Virus record (IMG/VR): IMGVR_UViG_3300002519_000025 | Span: 1 to 30,523 of that record | Strand: one strand, 5' to 3' | Length of the DNA: 30,523 bases | Source of the DNA: a virus | Shown: one piece after another, positions 1,491-11,788 of the stretch | How positions within the stretch are numbered: position 1 is the first letter of the stretch | Layout of the letters: every line of letters starts with the position of its first letter | The notes under the pieces: model-generated | Told to the model about the DNA's origin: nothing | The model's input: the letters and a program-made list of their open reading frames with translations, nothing else | The model's database searches: none | Made by a program: the position numbers and the translations under genes

Positions 1491-2160
1491 GATAGATGTA
1501 CCTCCTCTTGATGCTGTCCATGGGGCGGGGGAACAGGTCCCTCTCCAGGAGCAGCATGTGGTCCGTGAGCAGGCGGGCGGTCTCCTCGTAGCGGGACGGC
1601 CCCGACCCGTCGAAGCTGTGCGCTCCGTCCCTGATGCAGAGGTCCACCCTCCGCCTGGTGTTGACCCGTCCGACATGGCAGATGACGCCATGCCGTGCGC
1701 ACATGTCGGACATCGGCTTTATCGAGCGCAGCTTCCACGGAGTGGACCCGCCGATGAAGACGCCGATCCCGTCCTGGGCGTACTGCTCCAGGTCATCAGC
1801 CACCATGCCGTCCTGCGCGACGAAGACGAGCCTGTATCCCTCAAGTCTTTTAATCCATGTGCTCGCCATCCTGTGTGTTTCGATAGCATCTTCGACCTTA
1901 TCTGGTATCACCAGAAAGTCGGCATCATCACCATAACGCTCCACGTCGTCAAGGAATGGCGCGGGCTGGAACGGAGACCCGCGCTTGTGGCATACCCACG
2001 CACCGTTGTCTATCGCATACCCTGCGCACTCCCTCATGCGGCGGTAGGGCCTGCTCGGCGACATCATGTGCCGCCACGGGAACCTGTCCAGGTGCTGCAG
2101 CTGACGCGGGCTTGACGGCTGCGCACAGTACGGGATGATGTGGGTGTACCTGTCAGTCAT
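1483..2160 (-). CDS. dpdA: DpdA-like 7-deazaguanine DNA transglycosylase
   Basis: 225 residues, of the short phage type. DpdA is a tRNA-guanine-transglycosylase relative that swaps guanine in DNA for a 7-deazaguanine base. Visible hallmarks in order: an Asp-Asn-Gly at 51-53 (AIDNGAW), DFLVIPDKV (81-89), LVFVAQDG (111-118), VFIGGSTPWKL (134-144), HVGRVNTRRR (162-171) and HSFDGSG (181-187). Asp51 and Asp184 are the likely catalytic pair by analogy with TGT enzymes. No zinc-binding Cys cluster of bacterial TGT is visible, as expected for DpdA. The start at 2160 (2163 possible) follows GGGAGG and overlaps the upstream gene by 8 nt. Being sandwiched between two PP-loop enzyme genes makes a DNA modification cassette very likely. 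Confidence 0.85.
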   Translation of the reverse strand: MTDRYTHIIPYCAQPSSPRQLQHLDRFPWRHMMSPSRPYRRMRECAGYAIDNGAWVCHKRGSPFQPAPFLDDVERYGDDADFLVIPDKVEDAIETHRMASTWIKRLEGYRLVFVAQDGMVADDLEQYAQDGIGVFIGGSTPWKLRSIKPMSDMCARHGVICHVGRVNTRRRVDLCIRDGAHSFDGSGPSRYEETARLLTDHMLLLERDLFPRPMDSIKRRYIYHE

Positions 2161-3052
2161 CATCGCCTCCCTTGTGCTCGCACATGCCCCACTTGACGCA
2201 GGTCGGTTCTTCAGATGAAAACATCTCGAACTGCTTCCCCCCCCTTGCGGTGGTGCTCCATTCCCTGACATCGTCAATCGTCATGATGGGTACGCCCTTG
2301 ATCGGTGAGTGGAAGAAGGTGCTGTGCAGTTGGGCGTCGCCCTTCCGCTCCCTTTTGAGTTTGGTGCATGTGTTCTCCATGTCCCTGATCAAAGACACCC
2401 GATCCTCTTCCAGTCTTGCTATCTCCTTCTTTCGGCTGTTGATGCACGGCCAGCATCCCACCCTCGTTGAACCGTTCAGGTACAACTGGTTGGGTACAAG
2501 GTTCCATCGGTGGTGAATGTCGATGACCTGCTTCTCAGTCCAGGCTATCAACGGTCGCCACACCCAGCAGTCGAAGGCGTCGCTCCACTCCCACTCCGTC
2601 ATCCGTGAACGCCTGGGGCTTTCCTCCCTCCGTATCCCGACCAGCATCAGGTAGTCATGATCCAGCTCTTCCACATGTTTTGTGACTGGACGTATCTTCA
2701 ACTCCTGCGTGCACCACTTGCCATTGCGTGTCGGGAAGGACTGGTGCAGCAGGATGCGCCTGATCATCGGCGACCGCCAGCCGATGCGCTCCTCATAGTG
2801 CTCGACGTATTTCCTGTGCTCGTCCCTCACCCTGATGTCGGCACTCAGCCTGGTGATCGGCCCCACTGTCTCCTCCAGTTTGTCGAGGTAGGCGTAGGTG
2901 GAGGCGTGCTCCCACCCAGTATCCATGAAGACCCTGTCGTAGTCGTCCCTTGTGTAGCCCATCTCCATAAGGTGCAGGCACATCGCCGTGCTGTCCTTCC
3001 CCCCGCTCACCGATACTATCGGGCGCGCATTGGTCAGTCTCTCGTCAGTCAT
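2153..3052 (-). CDS. PAPS-reductase/DndC-like PP-loop protein
   Basis: 299 residues. The PP-loop SGGKDST is at about 16-22, followed by FMDTGWEH, VGIRREESPRRS, a WRPLIAWTEKQV segment and a CxxC-type site in GCWPCINSRKKEI. These are typical of the PAPS reductase/adenylyl-transferring family that includes phage PAPS-reductase-like proteins and, more distantly, DndC. Biochemical roles in the family range from sulfate activation to sulfur insertion into DNA; this member's substrate is unknown. It precedes dpdA with an 8-nt overlap (GGGAGG Shine-Dalgarno and ATGACTGA), so it should be co-produced with DpdA and QueC. It might alter the 7-deazaguanine base, or be an independent phage metabolic gene as seen in many siphophages. 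Confidence 0.8.
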   Translation of the reverse strand: MTDERLTNARPIVSVSGGKDSTAMCLHLMEMGYTRDDYDRVFMDTGWEHASTYAYLDKLEETVGPITRLSADIRVRDEHRKYVEHYEERIGWRSPMIRRILLHQSFPTRNGKWCTQELKIRPVTKHVEELDHDYLMLVGIRREESPRRSRMTEWEWSDAFDCWVWRPLIAWTEKQVIDIHHRWNLVPNQLYLNGSTRVGCWPCINSRKKEIARLEEDRVSLIRDMENTCTKLKRERKGDAQLHSTFFHSPIKGVPIMTIDDVREWSTTARGGKQFEMFSSEEPTCVKWGMCEHKGGDDD

Positions 3053-3767
3053 TGTTCGGGTCCTCCCTCTTGCCTGTCAGGTGCTCGCCCATCGCTGCGC
3101 CTCCCTCCACCATCAGGCGGAGATGCCTGTGGAATCCACGGTCGGCAGCCCGGCCCGCCCTGACCCGCGCCTCCAGTTCCTCCCAGTCCCACGGGAGCAT
3201 CATCTCCCTGTGCGACAGCTGGGGTGTGTCGGTGCAGGTGTAGTGGTATTCGTGCAGGTCGAGGCGCAGGTCCTCCACCAGCTTCTTCCTCCGCTCCTGC
3301 CAGGTGCGCACCGTGTTGCCGACCCTCTTAATGCTCCCCTTGCACCCGCACATGCACCTCTTGACCGAGACATAGGTGCGGTTCTGCTCGCGGTGGGGCT
3401 CGCTGCCTATCCCCCTGCCCCCATCCTGCGACGGGGCAATCCAGGTGTACAGCGCGGAGGTGAGGACGAGACCCCCCTCCTCCCTGCAGTGGTCGGAGCA
3501 GTACGGGTAGTCTATCACCTGGTGCGTCGAGCTGTATCCCAGGTCCACGGCCGTCTTCCTGACCGCCGCCACCACCGAACCGAGGCTCGGGGGGAAGTCG
3601 TACTCCTCCACGCACACCGCCTGCACCCCCTGGGTGAGGGCCTGGTCGGGGGTGTGTTCAAAGGCTGCCTTCCACATGGGACGAGACCCCTCCCGCCACG
3701 AGGCGGAGCGCATGAAGCTGGCGGCGAACATGCCGAGGGCGCTGTCTATCGTGCTGTCATACGCCAT
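3045..3767 (-). CDS. Putative zinc-binding replication accessory protein
   Basis: 240 residues starting at ATG 3767 (a GTG at 3770 is also in frame). The N-terminal part, with a MWKAAFEHTPDQAL segment and a YDFPPSLGSVVAAVRK segment, resembles the helical layout of phage helicase-loader or replisome proteins, where an F-P-P segment is common; this is a weak resemblance only. The middle has clustered Cys/His (YPYCSDHCREE, then CMCGCKG), consistent with a zinc knuckle. The C-terminal part is Arg/Glu-rich and probably helical. It lies directly downstream of the putative initiator and a small coiled-coil gene, the usual place of a loader. It overlaps the previous stop by one base and the next start by 8 nt. 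Confidence 0.6.
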   Translation of the reverse strand: MAYDSTIDSALGMFAASFMRSASWREGSRPMWKAAFEHTPDQALTQGVQAVCVEEYDFPPSLGSVVAAVRKTAVDLGYSSTHQVIDYPYCSDHCREEGGLVLTSALYTWIAPSQDGGRGIGSEPHREQNRTYVSVKRCMCGCKGSIKRVGNTVRTWQERRKKLVEDLRLDLHEYHYTCTDTPQLSHREMMLPWDWEELEARVRAGRAADRGFHRHLRLMVEGGAAMGEHLTGKREDPNND

Positions 3768-4000
3768 CACTCACCCCCTTCGAGGTGTCGGCGGGCGTCC
3801 TCCAGGTTGCGCTCAATCTCCTGCTGCTCATGGTGGTGGTGCAGGTACATCCGCTCGGCGTCATCCACCACCGCCTGCAGCTGTGCCAGGGTCGCGCCCT
3901 TCTCCAGTGCCAGCAGCATCTCGGGCACACGGCCGAAGAAGACCGCGCTCCGTATCTTCAATGCGACAGCCGCATCTATCTTGTATATCTTGTTGTCCAT
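3767..4000 (-). CDS. Small coiled-coil protein, 77 aa
   Basis: Begins MDNKIYKIDAAVALKIRSAV and continues into a long charged helix with a run of four His followed by EQQEIERNLEDARRHLEGGE, likely a coiled coil. Shine-Dalgarno AAGGAG lies 5-6 nt before the ATG in an ACAACAAGGAG leader. It starts 2 bases after the stop of the putative initiator gene and its own stop shares a base with the next ATG, so the three genes form one translational unit. No function is recognised; partners in replication are plausible from position only. Confidence 0.65.
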   Translation of the reverse strand: MDNKIYKIDAAVALKIRSAVFFGRVPEMLLALEKGATLAQLQAVVDDAERMYLHHHHEQQEIERNLEDARRHLEGGE

Positions 4001-4002
4001 GA

Positions 4003-4836
4003 CTACTCCTTGTTGTCTGGGATGAGGAAGCCGCGCTTGTCGTAGCGGGGTTCACTCTTTGGTTGCTGTTGTTGTTTGTTGCTGGTGGATTGCTCCACGG
4101 TTTTTATTGTATCAGATTTCCATGCCCTTGCCAAGGAAAAATTCTCGGCGTAGACTTTTTTGTTGCAGACGTTGTGCAGGTGCAGGTGTCCCTCGTCCCT
4201 CAGATACCTCGGCTTCGAGCGCGGGCAGTGGTACAGCCAGTCAAGGACGAGCAGCGCGCCGTCAAGGTTGCCTTTCCGCACCACGCTGCTACACACACCC
4301 AGGTCTTTTGCCAGGATGCAGTCAACGGTGTGTCCTGCTCCAGTGTAGTGCTCTATCCACTTGGCTAGCAGACGATAGCAGTCAGCGGAGCGGGTGACGC
4401 TGCTGAACAGCTCAGGACTCACCTCCTCGCATGCGTATTTTATTCCTTCACCACCAATAGTAATAGTAATATATTGGTTAAGGGGCGTCGATGCGTCCCT
4501 GTCCTCGGGAGGTGTGGAGGGGGACTGATTGAAAGGTGATTGAAAATTGTTCGAAGCGTCCTCTACACCCCCCGCAGACCCGGTCCCAGGTGATTGAAAA
4601 TTGTTCGAAGACTGATTGAAATCCTCCAGGTATGCGATGAACTGGCGGGTCTTGTACAATGTCCACCCCCATTTTCGTGACAGTTCCCTCTGGCTTGGGA
4701 GCTGGTTGAGAGCCCTCAGCTGTAGCCAGTCGTATGCCGCCTCCGCCTTGCTGTTCTTCCCCTGTGAGATGGCCAAGCCCTGGGGGACCTTGATATATCC
4801 CTTGCGCCTTTCCTTCTCCTGTGGTATATTAGTCAT
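4003..4836 (-). CDS. Winged-helix replication initiator-like protein with iterons in its gene
   Basis: 277 residues. Residues about 30-70 form a winged-helix DNA-binding region: AYDWLQLRAL, then LPSQRELSRKWGW, then LYKTRQFIAYLE. This arrangement is frequent in phage replication proteins of the lambda O / DnaD-like sort. Residues about 73-120 are a low-complexity linker in which FNQS, NNFQSP and similar units repeat; at DNA level this linker is a set of direct repeats (4526-4621) followed by an AT-rich stretch. The C-terminal half contains Cys/His residues and a Gln-rich tail (KQQQQ). A CAA-repeat leader with AAGGAGG precedes the ATG. As in lambda O, the gene may contain its own origin. It could instead be a transcription regulator. 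Confidence 0.6.
   Translation of the reverse strand: MTNIPQEKERRKGYIKVPQGLAISQGKNSKAEAAYDWLQLRALNQLPSQRELSRKWGWTLYKTRQFIAYLEDFNQSSNNFQSPGTGSAGGVEDASNNFQSPFNQSPSTPPEDRDASTPLNQYITITIGGEGIKYACEEVSPELFSSVTRSADCYRLLAKWIEHYTGAGHTVDCILAKDLGVCSSVVRKGNLDGALLVLDWLYHCPRSKPRYLRDEGHLHLHNVCNKKVYAENFSLARAWKSDTIKTVEQSTSNKQQQQPKSEPRYDKRGFLIPDNKE
4436..4481. other. AT-rich stretch beside the iterons, possible unwinding element
   Basis: A clearly AT-rich block inside otherwise GC-rich coding sequence, with three TAGTAAT/TAATA-type units. It is bounded by the inverted repeat ACCAAT (4453-4458) and ATTGGT (4473-4478). It lies about 45 bp from the repeat cluster on its downstream side in the gene's reading direction, the arrangement seen in lambda ori. 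Confidence 0.4.
4526..4621. repeat. Iteron-like direct repeats inside the initiator gene
   Basis: Four copies of TGATTGAAA at 4526, 4537, 4591 and 4613, all in the same orientation. Two of them lie in a longer perfect 23-bp repeat (4534-4556 and 4588-4610) that ends in ATTGTTCGAAG. The other two share ACTGATTGAAA. Spacings of 11, 54 and 22 bp are close to whole helical turns. The repeats encode the low-complexity linker of the protein, so they may be kept for DNA rather than protein reasons. Confidence 0.65.
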
Positions 4837-4866: not shown

Positions 4867-4939
4867 AGACAGCCGGGCGCATGGGGATGGGTGATGAACC
4901 CGAACCTCCGTTTATCCGGCTGTCGCTGTTTAAGGTCTG

Positions 4940-4963
4940 GGTACTGAACAGCTGTTCAGTACC
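4940..4963. promoter_or_regulatory. Perfect 24-bp palindrome, GAAC-N4-GTTC operator-like
   Basis: Half-site GGTACTGAACAG followed by its exact reverse complement. The core GAACAGCTGTTC fits the LexA/DinR box form used in many Gram-positive and some other bacteria (GAAC-N4-GTTC). It lies about 105 bp upstream of the initiator start codon, between that gene and the SWIM gene, in the only sizeable gap of this part of the leftward cluster. Confidence 0.55.
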
Positions 4964-4975
4964 GAAAATGCGTAC

Positions 4976-4989
4976 TGAACGGCTGTTCA
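4976..4989. promoter_or_regulatory. Second GAAC-N4-GTTC site
   Basis: TGAACGGCTGTTCA, starting 31 bp (about three helical turns) from the equivalent point of the perfect palindrome. The left flank GTAC is conserved, the right flank is not. It overlaps the stop codon of the SWIM gene. Two phased copies suggest a cooperative operator for an SOS-type or phage repressor. Confidence 0.5.
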
Positions 4990-8311: not shown

Positions 8312-8330
8312 CTGGAAAAAAACTTTCCAG
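8312..8330. other. Hairpin CTGGAAA/TTTCCAG
   Basis: Seven-base perfect arms with a 5-nt loop. Read leftward the interior is a T-run (GTTTTTTT inside the stem-loop), not a trailing tract, so it is unlikely to be a normal terminator. It may be an operator or a single-strand-DNA hairpin. Confidence 0.35.
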
Positions 8331-8455: not shown

Positions 8456-8485
8456 AGAATGGGAAGGATAGGGGAAAGGGTATAA

Positions 8486-8578
8486 GCGTTTTAACGCATA
8501 TGAGATAATATGAGATAATGTGAGTTATGTTTGACGAAGATGCTATATCAAATCACTTGATATGATTTATTTTTATAG
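8486..8578. other. AT-rich block with 10-bp repeats, candidate unwinding element
   Basis: Starts with GCGTT-TT-AACGC (8486-8497), then ATGAGATAAT twice (8500-8509, 8510-8519) and a degenerate third unit GTGAGTTATG. The inverted repeat ATATCAA/TTGATAT (8545-8563) follows, then a T-rich stretch to the first DnaA-like box. This matches the usual order of an unwinding region next to DnaA boxes. Confidence 0.5.
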
Positions 8579-8666
8579 TTATTCACAGGTTGTTCACAGG
8601 TTATCCACAGCTTGTTCACAGGTTACTGACAGGTTACTGACAGCTTATTCACAGGTTATTCACAGG
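8579..8666 (+). repeat. Eight tandem 11-bp DnaA-box-like repeats (candidate origin)
   Basis: Eight head-to-tail units with no gaps. Units 1, 7 and 8 are TTATTCACAGG, unit 3 is TTATCCACAGC (exact DnaA box TTATCCACA), units 2 and 4 are TTGTTCACAGG, units 5 and 6 are TTACTGACAGG/C. The first nine bases fit TTATNCACA in four units. Same orientation and an 11-bp period would place all boxes nearly on one face of the helix. Either a replication origin that recruits host DnaA, or a DnaA titration/regulatory site. Confidence 0.75.
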
Positions 8667-8669
8667 CCA

Positions 8670-8689
8670 CCCCACCCCCCCCCAAACCC
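8670..8689 (-). other. G-rich tract on the minus strand, G-quadruplex candidate
   Basis: Minus strand reads GGG TTT, nine G, T, GGGG. That provides four or more G-runs of at least three with short loops. It sits 4 bases beyond the last DnaA-like unit, where a folded strand could affect unwinding or fork direction. The run of nine C is also a likely hot spot for length variation. Confidence 0.4.
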
Positions 8690-8751
8690 GCCTTTTATAC
8701 CTACGCAGTAGTGTACCCCTCATATCCCGGGCAGTTTTTCACTCGTTCACC

Positions 8752-8810: not shown

Positions 8811-8923
8811 TCTTTTGCGCCGCGCGTGTTTTTATTGGTTGATTTTTTAATTATGTTTTTGTTTATGTTTTTTATTGTGTTTTGGTGGTGGTGGTGGTAT
8901 TATTTTCTTCAGGGGGTGTTTCA

Positions 8924-9211
8924 ATGGGCTTCGGTGAGTGGATATGCAAGGCGGTGCATCGTCACGGTATGACCCACCGTGCTTTCGAGGACGTCACCGG
9001 CGTCAGCAGGGGCAGCCTGTACCGCTGGCGCATAAACGGTCAGCTTCCCAGGCTCGAGCTGTTCGTCCAGGTGTGCGAGGTGCTTGCGCGTCTCGGAGGG
9101 AGGAGCCTGGAGGACGTCATGCTCGACGGTCTGCGCTCCGTGCCCGACTACGGGTACGCATTGGTGCGGCTTGCACAGGTCCAGCATCTTCTGGAGGTGG
9201 ATGATGCCTGA
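8924..9211 (+). CDS. HTH (XRE/Cro-type) regulator
   Basis: 95 residues from ATG 8924, with AGGGGGTG about 5 nt upstream; the longer in-frame reading starts in T/G-rich non-coding sequence and is rejected. The helix-turn-helix is residues about 16-40: HRAFEDVTGVSRGSLYRWRING, followed by a helix LELFVQVCEVLARLGG. The XRE-like fold fits a Cro/repressor at the start of the rightward arm, next to palindromic sites. It is followed without a gap by the next gene (8-nt overlap). A small-terminase role is a less likely alternative, given that no TerS is otherwise visible. Confidence 0.7.
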   Translation: MGFGEWICKAVHRHGMTHRAFEDVTGVSRGSLYRWRINGQLPRLELFVQVCEVLARLGGRSLEDVMLDGLRSVPDYGYALVRLAQVQHLLEVDDA

Positions 9212-9892: not shown

Positions 9893-10296
9893 GGCTGGTC
9901 ATCGTCGGTGACCGGAAGGTGCTCATGAAGAAGAACCTGATGAAGGTCACACGCTTCGGCGGGCTGTACAAGTCGGGGGAGCTGAAGCGCTTCGAGGCGT
10001 ACGTCGGGATGCTGGCGGCCGTAGCCTGCGCCGAGCAGGGATGGCTCTGCACTGACGGGCCGGTGGCCCTTTCGGTGGGGGTGGTTTTCGGTGACAGGAG
10101 GAAGAGGGACCTGCAGAACTGCTTCGGGGCGCTGTGCGACGCGCTGGAGGGGATAGTGTACGACGACGACAGCCAGATACGCCTCATCGCCGCCAGGAAG
10201 GAGTATGTGAAGGGGATGTGGGGCTTCGAGATAAGCGTGGAGCCGTACGGGGGGAGGAAGGATGCTGGACAGGCTTCCCAAGAGACTGCGCATTGA
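9889..10296 (+). CDS. rusA: RusA-like Holliday junction resolvase
   Basis: 135 residues. The RusA core is visible: R-D-L-Q-N at 73-77, then CFGALCDALEGIVYDDDSQI (about 78-97) and a Lys at 104. RusA dimers cut Holliday junctions in phage DNA before packaging. In Escherichia coli RusA the first motif is D-x-D-N with both Asp essential; here the second position is Gln (Gln76), while Asp74 and the YDDD cluster are kept. Activity may be retained by variant chemistry or altered. The ATG overlaps the upstream stop (ATGA) and the 3' end overlaps the terminase start by 35 nt. Confidence 0.82.
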   Translation: MRLVIVGDRKVLMKKNLMKVTRFGGLYKSGELKRFEAYVGMLAAVACAEQGWLCTDGPVALSVGVVFGDRRKRDLQNCFGALCDALEGIVYDDDSQIRLIAARKEYVKGMWGFEISVEPYGGRKDAGQASQETAH

Positions 10297-11788
10297 GCTG
10301 GAGCCCGTCCTCAGGGACCCCCTCAAGTTCGTTCAGCTGCTGAAGATACAGGACAAGAGGTCTGGGAAGCTGGTGCGGTTCTCGCCCAACACGGAGCAGG
10401 TCGCGCTTCTCAGGAAGCTGGGCAGGCACGACAAGGTCATCATACTGAAGCCCAGGCAGATCGGGATAAGCACGGTGCTCAGGGCGTACGCGCTGTGGAG
10501 GACGTACAGGACGAAAGATCCCCTCAAGTTCGGTGTCATCTCCTTCCATGAACGGAGCGCGAAGCACCTGCGCAAGATGGATTCCAGGATGCACAACTCC
10601 CTGCCCGACGCGCTCAGGAGGAACCTGGAGATAGACAACTCCACCACCATGGAGTTCGCGGGGACGGGGGCGCAGCTCTCCTCCTTCACTGCGGGGTCCA
10701 AGGGCGGGACGAGGTCGTTCTCGCTGTCCAGCGTCCACCTCTCGGAGTTCGCCTTCTACGACGACGGCGCGGAGATGCTCGCCCAGGTGGTCGCCACCAT
10801 CGGAGAGGGGCAGATCATCATCGAGAGCACCCCGAACAAGCCCGGCGACACATTCCACAGGCTCATAATGGGGGCTCCCGAGAACGGATGGCACCTCGTC
10901 ACCTACTGGTGGCACGACCACCAGATGTACAGGCTGCCCGCACCGGAGGACTTCGAGCCGACCGCCGAGGAGGGGAGGCTGGAGAGGATGTACGGGTGCG
11001 ACTGGGACCAGCTCAACTGGCGCAGGAGGCAGATAGCCACCATCGGGCTCGAGAAGTTCCGCAGGGAGTACCCGGGATGCCTCGACGACGCGTTCCACTT
11101 CGCCGCCTCCACCTACTTCACGCAGGAGGAGATCAGGGAGATAGAGCCCGTCCACTTCGACGGTGAGGAGAGGCTCTACCACGACCCCGAGACGCAGGAC
11201 GTGTACGCGATGGGCGTCGACGTCGCGGCGGGGGTCGGGGGCGACTACTCCGCCATATCCGTCATATCCATGGCGACGTTCCAGCCCGTCTTCCACTACC
11301 GCAGCAACTCCGTCAGCCCGTCCGCCTTCACCGACACGGTGCTCAGGGTGGCGCAGTGGTTCAACGGGGCCAGGGTGCTGTGCGAGAGCAACAACCACGG
11401 GCACGTCGTCCTCTACAGGCTCAGGCACATGGGCTACAAAAATCTGTGGCTGTCGCACGACCTGAAGGACTGGACGACCACCACCAAGAGCAAGCTCGAC
11501 GCCTACGAGACGCTGCGGGAGTACGTCACGCAGGGGATGATCATGAAGATGGACGCGCAGGTGCTTGCGGAGCTGGGGTCGCTCGTCGTCACCAGGGTCA
11601 CGCCCGAGGCGCCAAAGGGCATGCACGACGACCTCGCCATGTCGATGGCGCTGGCGTACCGCTGCCTGCGGGACATCCCGAGGAGGAAGCTGACACTCGC
11701 TAGACGCAACCTCATGGATGTGCTAATATCCGAGACAAGAACAAGGAAGAACAGAGACCAACCCATTCCATGGAAGAAGAGCAGATGA
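10262..11788 (+). CDS. terL: Terminase large subunit (TerL)
   Basis: 508 residues. The ATPase domain has KPRQIGIST (63-71, Walker A), VHLSEFAF (158-165, Walker B region with Glu162) and IIIESTP (185-191, coupling motif). The RNase H-like nuclease shows GVDVAAGVGGDYS (318-330, Asp320 and Asp328), CESNNHGH (374-381, Glu375) and MHDDLAMS (454-461). TerL pumps and cuts concatemeric DNA at the portal. All catalytic positions are intact and the length is typical. GGGGGGAGGAAGG precedes the ATG. The small subunit was not recognised in the window. Confidence 0.96.
   Translation: MLDRLPKRLRIELEPVLRDPLKFVQLLKIQDKRSGKLVRFSPNTEQVALLRKLGRHDKVIILKPRQIGISTVLRAYALWRTYRTKDPLKFGVISFHERSAKHLRKMDSRMHNSLPDALRRNLEIDNSTTMEFAGTGAQLSSFTAGSKGGTRSFSLSSVHLSEFAFYDDGAEMLAQVVATIGEGQIIIESTPNKPGDTFHRLIMGAPENGWHLVTYWWHDHQMYRLPAPEDFEPTAEEGRLERMYGCDWDQLNWRRRQIATIGLEKFRREYPGCLDDAFHFAASTYFTQEEIREIEPVHFDGEERLYHDPETQDVYAMGVDVAAGVGGDYSAISVISMATFQPVFHYRSNSVSPSAFTDTVLRVAQWFNGARVLCESNNHGHVVLYRLRHMGYKNLWLSHDLKDWTTTTKSKLDAYETLREYVTQGMIMKMDAQVLAELGSLVVTRVTPEAPKGMHDDLAMSMALAYRCLRDIPRRKLTLARRNLMDVLISETRTRKNRDQPIPWKKSR

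Follow-up and report, generated by a model that had tools for sequence, protein, structure and literature searches.

A tandem DnaA-box array, possibly a regulatory cassette read by host DnaA, lies between the divergent gene arms of a marine phage

The window analysed here, a 30,523-base virus record with 59% GC taken at its full length, comes from a marine phage and carries eight gapless 11 bp units, all on the + strand (8579–8666), as read directly from the sequence. Given the agreement of these units with the DnaA box, host DnaA is very probably the factor that reads them. Because other repeat arrays of about equal length fill the same slot in related phages, we regard the slot as an exchangeable regulatory cassette; in our judgement it is an interchangeable cis-regulatory element to which DnaA may be one input among several. 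The reading that we favour, with a probability of roughly 0.4, is that the array is a host-DnaA-dependent cis-regulatory cassette with a lambda-like logic rather than a replicator, and a role as the primary origin is unlikely. Similar 11 bp arrays are found in dozens of unrelated phages.

Results

The array and its flanking DNA

The left arm of the window runs leftward (PAPS-reductase-like, P-like loader, initiator-like and small early genes) and the right arm runs rightward (RusA, large terminase, portal region, capsid and virion proteins); the array lies in the gene-poor gap between them, where the sequence-only reading had placed it. The early arm also holds a QueC-like gene (900–1691), and its PAPS-reductase-like gene (2153–3052) has no homologue in the compared relatives.

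The same reading had described eight gapless same-strand units including one TTATCCACA and three TTATTCACA, and direct inspection reproduced this exactly (Table 1). These four are perfect TTATNCACA boxes and lie in phase; the other four units comprise two TTGTTCACA and two TTACTGACA, the latter being two mismatches away from TTATCCACA. Tandem Repeats Finder independently returned the array with a period of 11, 8.1 copies and a score of 115. All four TTATNCACA sites of the 30.5 kb window fall inside the array, whereas 300 dinucleotide shuffles of the whole window contained 0.31 sites on average, with at most one in phase, and none of 2000 shuffles of the 578 bp gap contained more than one. The array is thus a cluster of close DnaA boxes beyond chance, to which DnaA would be expected to bind.

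Table 1. Positions of the features of the window considered in the text
Feature	Position	Strand	Sequence or basis
P-like helicase loader	3045–3770	-	PHROG phrog_109, E = 9e-4; adjoins the initiator gene
Initiator-like gene (lambda O/DnaD-like)	4003–4836	-	Weak PHROG hit; conserved in all long close relatives; AlphaFold2; weak fold matches
Iterons inside the initiator gene	4526–4619	-	TCAATCA/TCGAACA cores, two triplets, 11 bp pitch; read directly and from relatives
Least stable 100 bp duplex stretch of the window	8481–8580		Nearest-neighbour stability scan; immediately left of the array
AT-rich ATATGAGATA repeats	8498–8524		Repeat finding; inside the least stable stretch
Palindrome ATATCAA-atcac-TTGATAT, 7 bp arms	8545–8563		Inside the least stable stretch
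Array unit 1	8579	+	TTATTCACAGG
Array unit 2	8590	+	TTGTTCACAGG
Array unit 3	8601	+	TTATCCACAGC
Array unit 4	8612	+	TTGTTCACAGG
Array unit 5	8623	+	TTACTGACAGG
Array unit 6	8634	+	TTACTGACAGC
Array unit 7	8645	+	TTATTCACAGG
Array unit 8	8656	+	TTATTCACAGG
C-rich tract directly after the array	8667–8692		Relatives have a GGGG-CCCC dyad or C-rich tract in the same place
CTACGCAGTAG element	8701–8711		Conserved in relatives regardless of the preceding repeats
First rightward gene	8882–9211	+	ORF list; true start probably about 8924
Terminase large subunit	10262–11788	+	PHROG phrog_2, E = 3e-32; query used to find relatives

The AT-rich repeat block that had been noted beside the array was found again. 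Easily melted DNA, as expected at an origin, adjoins the boxes in the window, but not consistently in the relatives. The gap also holds two operator-like palindromes with 7 bp arms, one at 8312–8330 and the other within the least stable stretch. To the right of the array, no TATAAW hexamer occurs within 140 nt of CTACGCAGTAG. The IHF consensus WATCAANNNNTTR is absent from the whole window, so that the combination of boxes and an IHF site that marks a datA-type titration locus was not found, although the host may have a different IHF or none. A comparison of the gap DNA with isolated phages found no similarity. The product of the first rightward gene is a short protein with a helix-turn-helix-like stretch, annotated by eye.

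Cassette exchange among relatives

A terminase search of viral contigs returned relatives at 23 loci (64–87% identity), several of them on contigs of about 30–33 kb; a terminase profile run against 84,980 genomes in a search for the host found no relative. The GC content shifts widely within this phage group, from 59% in the window to 38–41% in relatives with an 82–84% identical terminase (L092–L099). When related genomes were searched for the array, as the sequence-only reading had proposed, DnaA arrays that differ in sequence were found at the homologous site in three of them (L010/G003, L014/G007 and L016/G009), giving four genomes with a DnaA-box cassette, window included. The array of G003 has four phased boxes and one farther upstream, together with TTACTGACAG units and their reverse, which deviate from the DnaA consensus; that of G009 has six boxes. 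L014 and L016 are near-identical, with one extra base within the L014 array.

The gap alignment took in seven close relatives and revealed, between conserved left and right flanks, a 146–160 bp stretch of three unrelated kinds, namely DnaA boxes (G003, G007 and G009), TGTTCAGTG repeats (G005 and G013) and TTAAAACGTGCGCGCGAGG repeats (G002 and G004), its length being kept within this range across all three. The more distant G006 and G012 have other sequences in the slot; a tract that is C-rich or of the GGGG-CCCC form comes next, and after it a CTACGCAGTAG-like element. Between G009 and G013/G005 the cassette is 63% identical, which is about the level of a forced alignment, compared with 87–91% for the left flank and 96–97% for the right flank. 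Among the DnaA-type genomes, the right flank of G003 most resembles that of the third kind (96% identity to G004) and those of G007 and G009 that of the second (96–97% to G005/G013), which indicates that the cassette was exchanged or regained more than once. The TGAACA motif of the 21 bp copies near the window's initiator gene (see below) forms 8 bp-pitch repeats in the gap of L008 and, in reverse, in L012/L027. The motif scans of viral contigs also returned unrelated matches, one for CTACGCAGTAG (L076) and three for GATATGTCTARGGATACGA (L109–L111).

In the relatives, the cassette is closely followed by a conserved promoter-like block that points rightward. In eight of them TATAAW follows CTACGCAGTAG or a close variant at a fixed 48–50 nt, and in G012, a ninth, at 67 nt; the first ATG in the rightward direction lies about 40 nt beyond TATAAW. 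On the strength of these motifs, the block is a plausible promoter for the rightward arm. G003 has in addition a near-consensus leftward promoter candidate (TTGACA-18-TATACT, 11 of 12 matches) 260–300 bp to the left of its array. The window has diverged in the promoter block, with neither the rightward TATAAW nor the leftward promoter being clear, and its promoter scan gave no excess over shuffles (one found, 2.4 expected).

The putative phage replicator

The tentative likeness of the initiator to lambda O lies in its predicted architecture, a helix-turn-helix region (30–77) and a disordered linker (78–120) followed by a helical C-terminal part, and in fold matches that are weak since the AlphaFold2 model is of low confidence (pTM 0.43); no Pfam or PDB sequence hit was found for it. 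The iterons fall in the part of the gene that encodes the predicted disordered linker, with cores at 4526, 4537 and 4548 (triplet 4526–4554) and at 4591, 4602 and 4613 (triplet 4591–4619). Their layout recurs in all five examined relatives that hold the initiator gene, as six perfect TCAATCA cores in G006 and G012 and as diverged versions at the same positions in G005, G009 and G013. Six genomes therefore have the two triplets of direct repeats within the initiator gene that are expected of a lambda-type replicator, and the P-like loader adjoins this gene (phrog_109 is also matched in G013, E = 4.5e-6). In lambda, the origin iterons likewise lie inside the initiator gene O (PMC7466680). By their position and repeat structure, the iterons are probably the phage replicator, about 4 kb from the array. 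Just upstream of the initiator gene (4938–4989) are two copies of the 21 bp TGNGTACTGAACNGCTGTTCA, with the palindromic core TGAACAGCTGTTCA.

In the complete relative G013, no polymerase, primase, integrase or replicative helicase was found among the Pfam matches and the PHROG matches listed (25 of 36 families), the scan covering all but one long ORF that spans two loci. As it has no recognisable polymerase, primase or helicase, this phage, like lambda, should depend on the host replisome.

Candidate readers of the cassette

Between G009 and G013/G005, which differ in cassette type, the initiator is 91%/89% identical, the helicase loader 95%/90%, the small terminase 99% and the large terminase 99–100%. 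The sites of unchanged proteins should not change completely, and these four proteins are therefore not the cassette readers. No phage gene common to the window and G009 yet missing from G013 was found, which makes a host factor the more likely reader; nor was any phage gene specific to the DnaA-type genomes found where they are comparable, the coverage of G003 and of the window being partial. Host DnaA is the best candidate because of the exact DnaA consensus and the exchange of the cassette with unchanged phage genes.

Two other assignments were rejected. The 8.6 kb array is not the iterons of the phage initiator, since the cassette is swapped with the initiator unchanged, and it is not a terminase recognition site, since terminases 99–100% identical occur across cassette types; furthermore, the small terminase gene lies far from the gap in G009 and G013.

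Arrays in other phages

Three perfect tandem TTATYCACAGG units were found in 48 viral-contig stretches, nearly always outside long ORFs. Contamination of these contigs by bacterial oriC is ruled out, dnaA being present in none of the 41 array-bearing records searched. Isolated phages with clusters include T7-like, T5-like, Arthrobacter, Vibrio, Streptomyces and Lactococcus phages as well as microviruses, and several of these clusters lie near genome ends. The T7-like Berlinvirus P483 has eight DnaA-like boxes in non-coding DNA between the terminase and a 0.3-like gene (L104, 3942–4069), and clusters of this type, probably at the genome-end junction, are also present in A7 and nasanit. In a microvirus (bajarodmic virus 162), a tandem of five DnaA boxes directly adjoins the gene for the replication initiator (L108, 1783–1839), and in Streptomyces phage LilMartin DnaA-like repeats occur in a non-coding gap of 1.4 kb that lies about 11 kb away from the end of the genome (L130, 6001–6037). 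When the neighbours of the arrays were surveyed in 38 contigs, the most frequent terminase family matched 7 of 100 nearby ORFs and 2 of 100 distant ones, which is a lead only as families overlap and the contigs are few.

Discussion

We propose that the array would serve as a landing strip for host DnaA between the two divergent gene arms. DnaA would bind cooperatively to the boxes, which run head to tail, and form a nucleoprotein filament that would control transcription of the flanking arms, above all that of the rightward arm, whose promoter-like block comes right after the cassette. It might also control the leftward early operon with its O-like and P-like genes and the phage's own origin. 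We infer both the direction of regulation and a similar working of the other cassettes. An array that keeps its place and its length between two candidate promoters would suit a regulatory region that depends on DnaA. The precedent is lambda, in which host DnaA stimulates pR and thereby activates oriLambda (PMC3985674, PMC7466680). The two systems are alike in having an O-like initiator gene with internal iterons adjoining a P-like loader, in depending on the host replisome and in having DnaA sites outside the replicator. They differ in that lambda has few DnaA-box-like sites near pR/pO, compared with an eight-unit tandem array in the window phage, and four 19 bp iterons instead of triplets with an 11 bp pitch; the window array is, moreover, 4 kb from the iterons and exchangeable. 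Several observations count against a regulatory cassette: the fixed TATAAW spacing is missing from the window, the promoter scan there showed no excess, and the leftward candidate of G003 lies 260–300 bp from its array. The T7-like and T5-like arrays are located at genome ends or close to them and probably have another role there. An origin, too, would be expected to have the least stable DNA beside its boxes, as the window does.

The sequence-only reading had taken the array for a host-DnaA-dependent origin or a DnaA sink. The DnaA boxes stand by sequence, the origin is disfavoured by the iterons 4 kb away and by the box-less relatives, and the sink has become the main rival of a regulatory cassette, though we consider it rather doubtful. 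By titrating host DnaA, the array would lower initiation on the host chromosome and free host DnaB, DnaG and Pol III for the phage, an effect that would grow with phage copy number. This would suit a phage that, like G013, needs host replisome parts, and tandem 11 bp DnaA arrays are indeed found again in phages that are unrelated and replicate in very different ways, none of the 41 array-bearing viral records searched having dnaA. Arrays are also much rarer in plasmids (4 of 72,556 records) than in phages (55 of 50,697), a rough ratio given that phage records are redundant. The plasmid count comes from a mixed query, the perfect-repeat query having returned nothing, probably through low-complexity masking. 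In E. coli, DnaA titration on chromosomal DNA is reported (PMC12371093). Yet eight sites per incoming genome are few, and a sink could sit anywhere, whereas the array keeps one slot and one length, a slot in which sister phages hold non-DnaA repeats. An origin, main or accessory, is less probable still; DnaA would there open the AT-rich DNA on the left side of the array, and the helicase would be placed by loaders of the phage or the host. The boxes have an oriC-like pitch and adjoin the least stable 100 bp stretch in the window, and the compositional skew changes sign around 7–9 kb, although it is confounded by gene direction. Bacterial oriC and datA-type clusters similarly combine tandem same-strand boxes with AT-rich DNA, but the window array has no nearby dnaA, lacks an IHF consensus and stands apart from the putative phage replicator, the conserved lambda-type iterons. 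Sharing a replication system does not entail sharing the boxes: G005 and G013 have none, although their initiators are 89–91% identical to that of G009. Nor do the relatives regularly have their least stable DNA in the gap. The occurrence of arrays across replication modes weakens the origin further and leaves titration and a signal in DNA entry as general explanations.

Such a signal, by which DnaA on boxes near a genome end would pause or position the phage DNA, has been suggested for the T5 injection stop signal, whose features include DnaA boxes (PMC13250531); here we hold it to be quite improbable. Box clusters do occur in the T5-like terminal repeat, between the terminase and the early region in T7-like records and, in records of Arthrobacter phages, about 50–100 bp from the end. 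The T5 region resembles the window array in placing DnaA boxes in a large non-coding gap, but it belongs to a long terminal repeat and not to a gap between divergent arms. The Berlinvirus clusters, at the early end of T7-like genomes (P483, A7 and nasanit), share the 11–12 bp pitch, the non-coding location and the single strand, but their phages have their own RNA polymerase and their arrays lie near a probable genome-end junction. The contigs of our relatives, by contrast, run across the gap, and their terminases are 99–100% identical between cassette types. A search of the contigs compared returned no terminal repeat of 16–300 bp. Equally improbable is an operator that is recognised by some DNA-binding protein of the phage and is similar to a DnaA box only by chance: unrelated repeats in sister cassettes are typical of phage operators and the TTACTGACAG units of G003 are off the consensus, but no phage gene was found to go with the DnaA-type cassette, and most units in the four genomes fit the DnaA consensus.

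The array had also been called unusual beside the phage's own initiator, which is only partly so. Lambda too pairs host DnaA with its own O and P (PMC3985674), and DnaA-box clusters are also seen in records of T7-like phages, T5-like phages and microviruses that encode replication proteins of their own.

The most interesting point is the exchange of arrays among near-identical phages. We tentatively suggest, as a possibility weaker than the regulatory cassette itself, that a fixed slot between divergent arms takes whole-cassette swaps of site arrays for different DNA-binding proteins, host DnaA being one of them, so that phage control or decoys could be re-wired to a new host factor in a single recombination step. 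If this is true, DnaA-array cassettes would be a widespread and overlooked phage device. Near-identical phage genomes with and without boxes offer a natural comparison in which DnaA binding is separable from the replication origin and which could reveal the contribution of host DnaA to a phage. Should the cassette be a sink, it would be a DNA-only means to curb host replication; should it be a swappable input, it would show how phages re-wire themselves to host factors.
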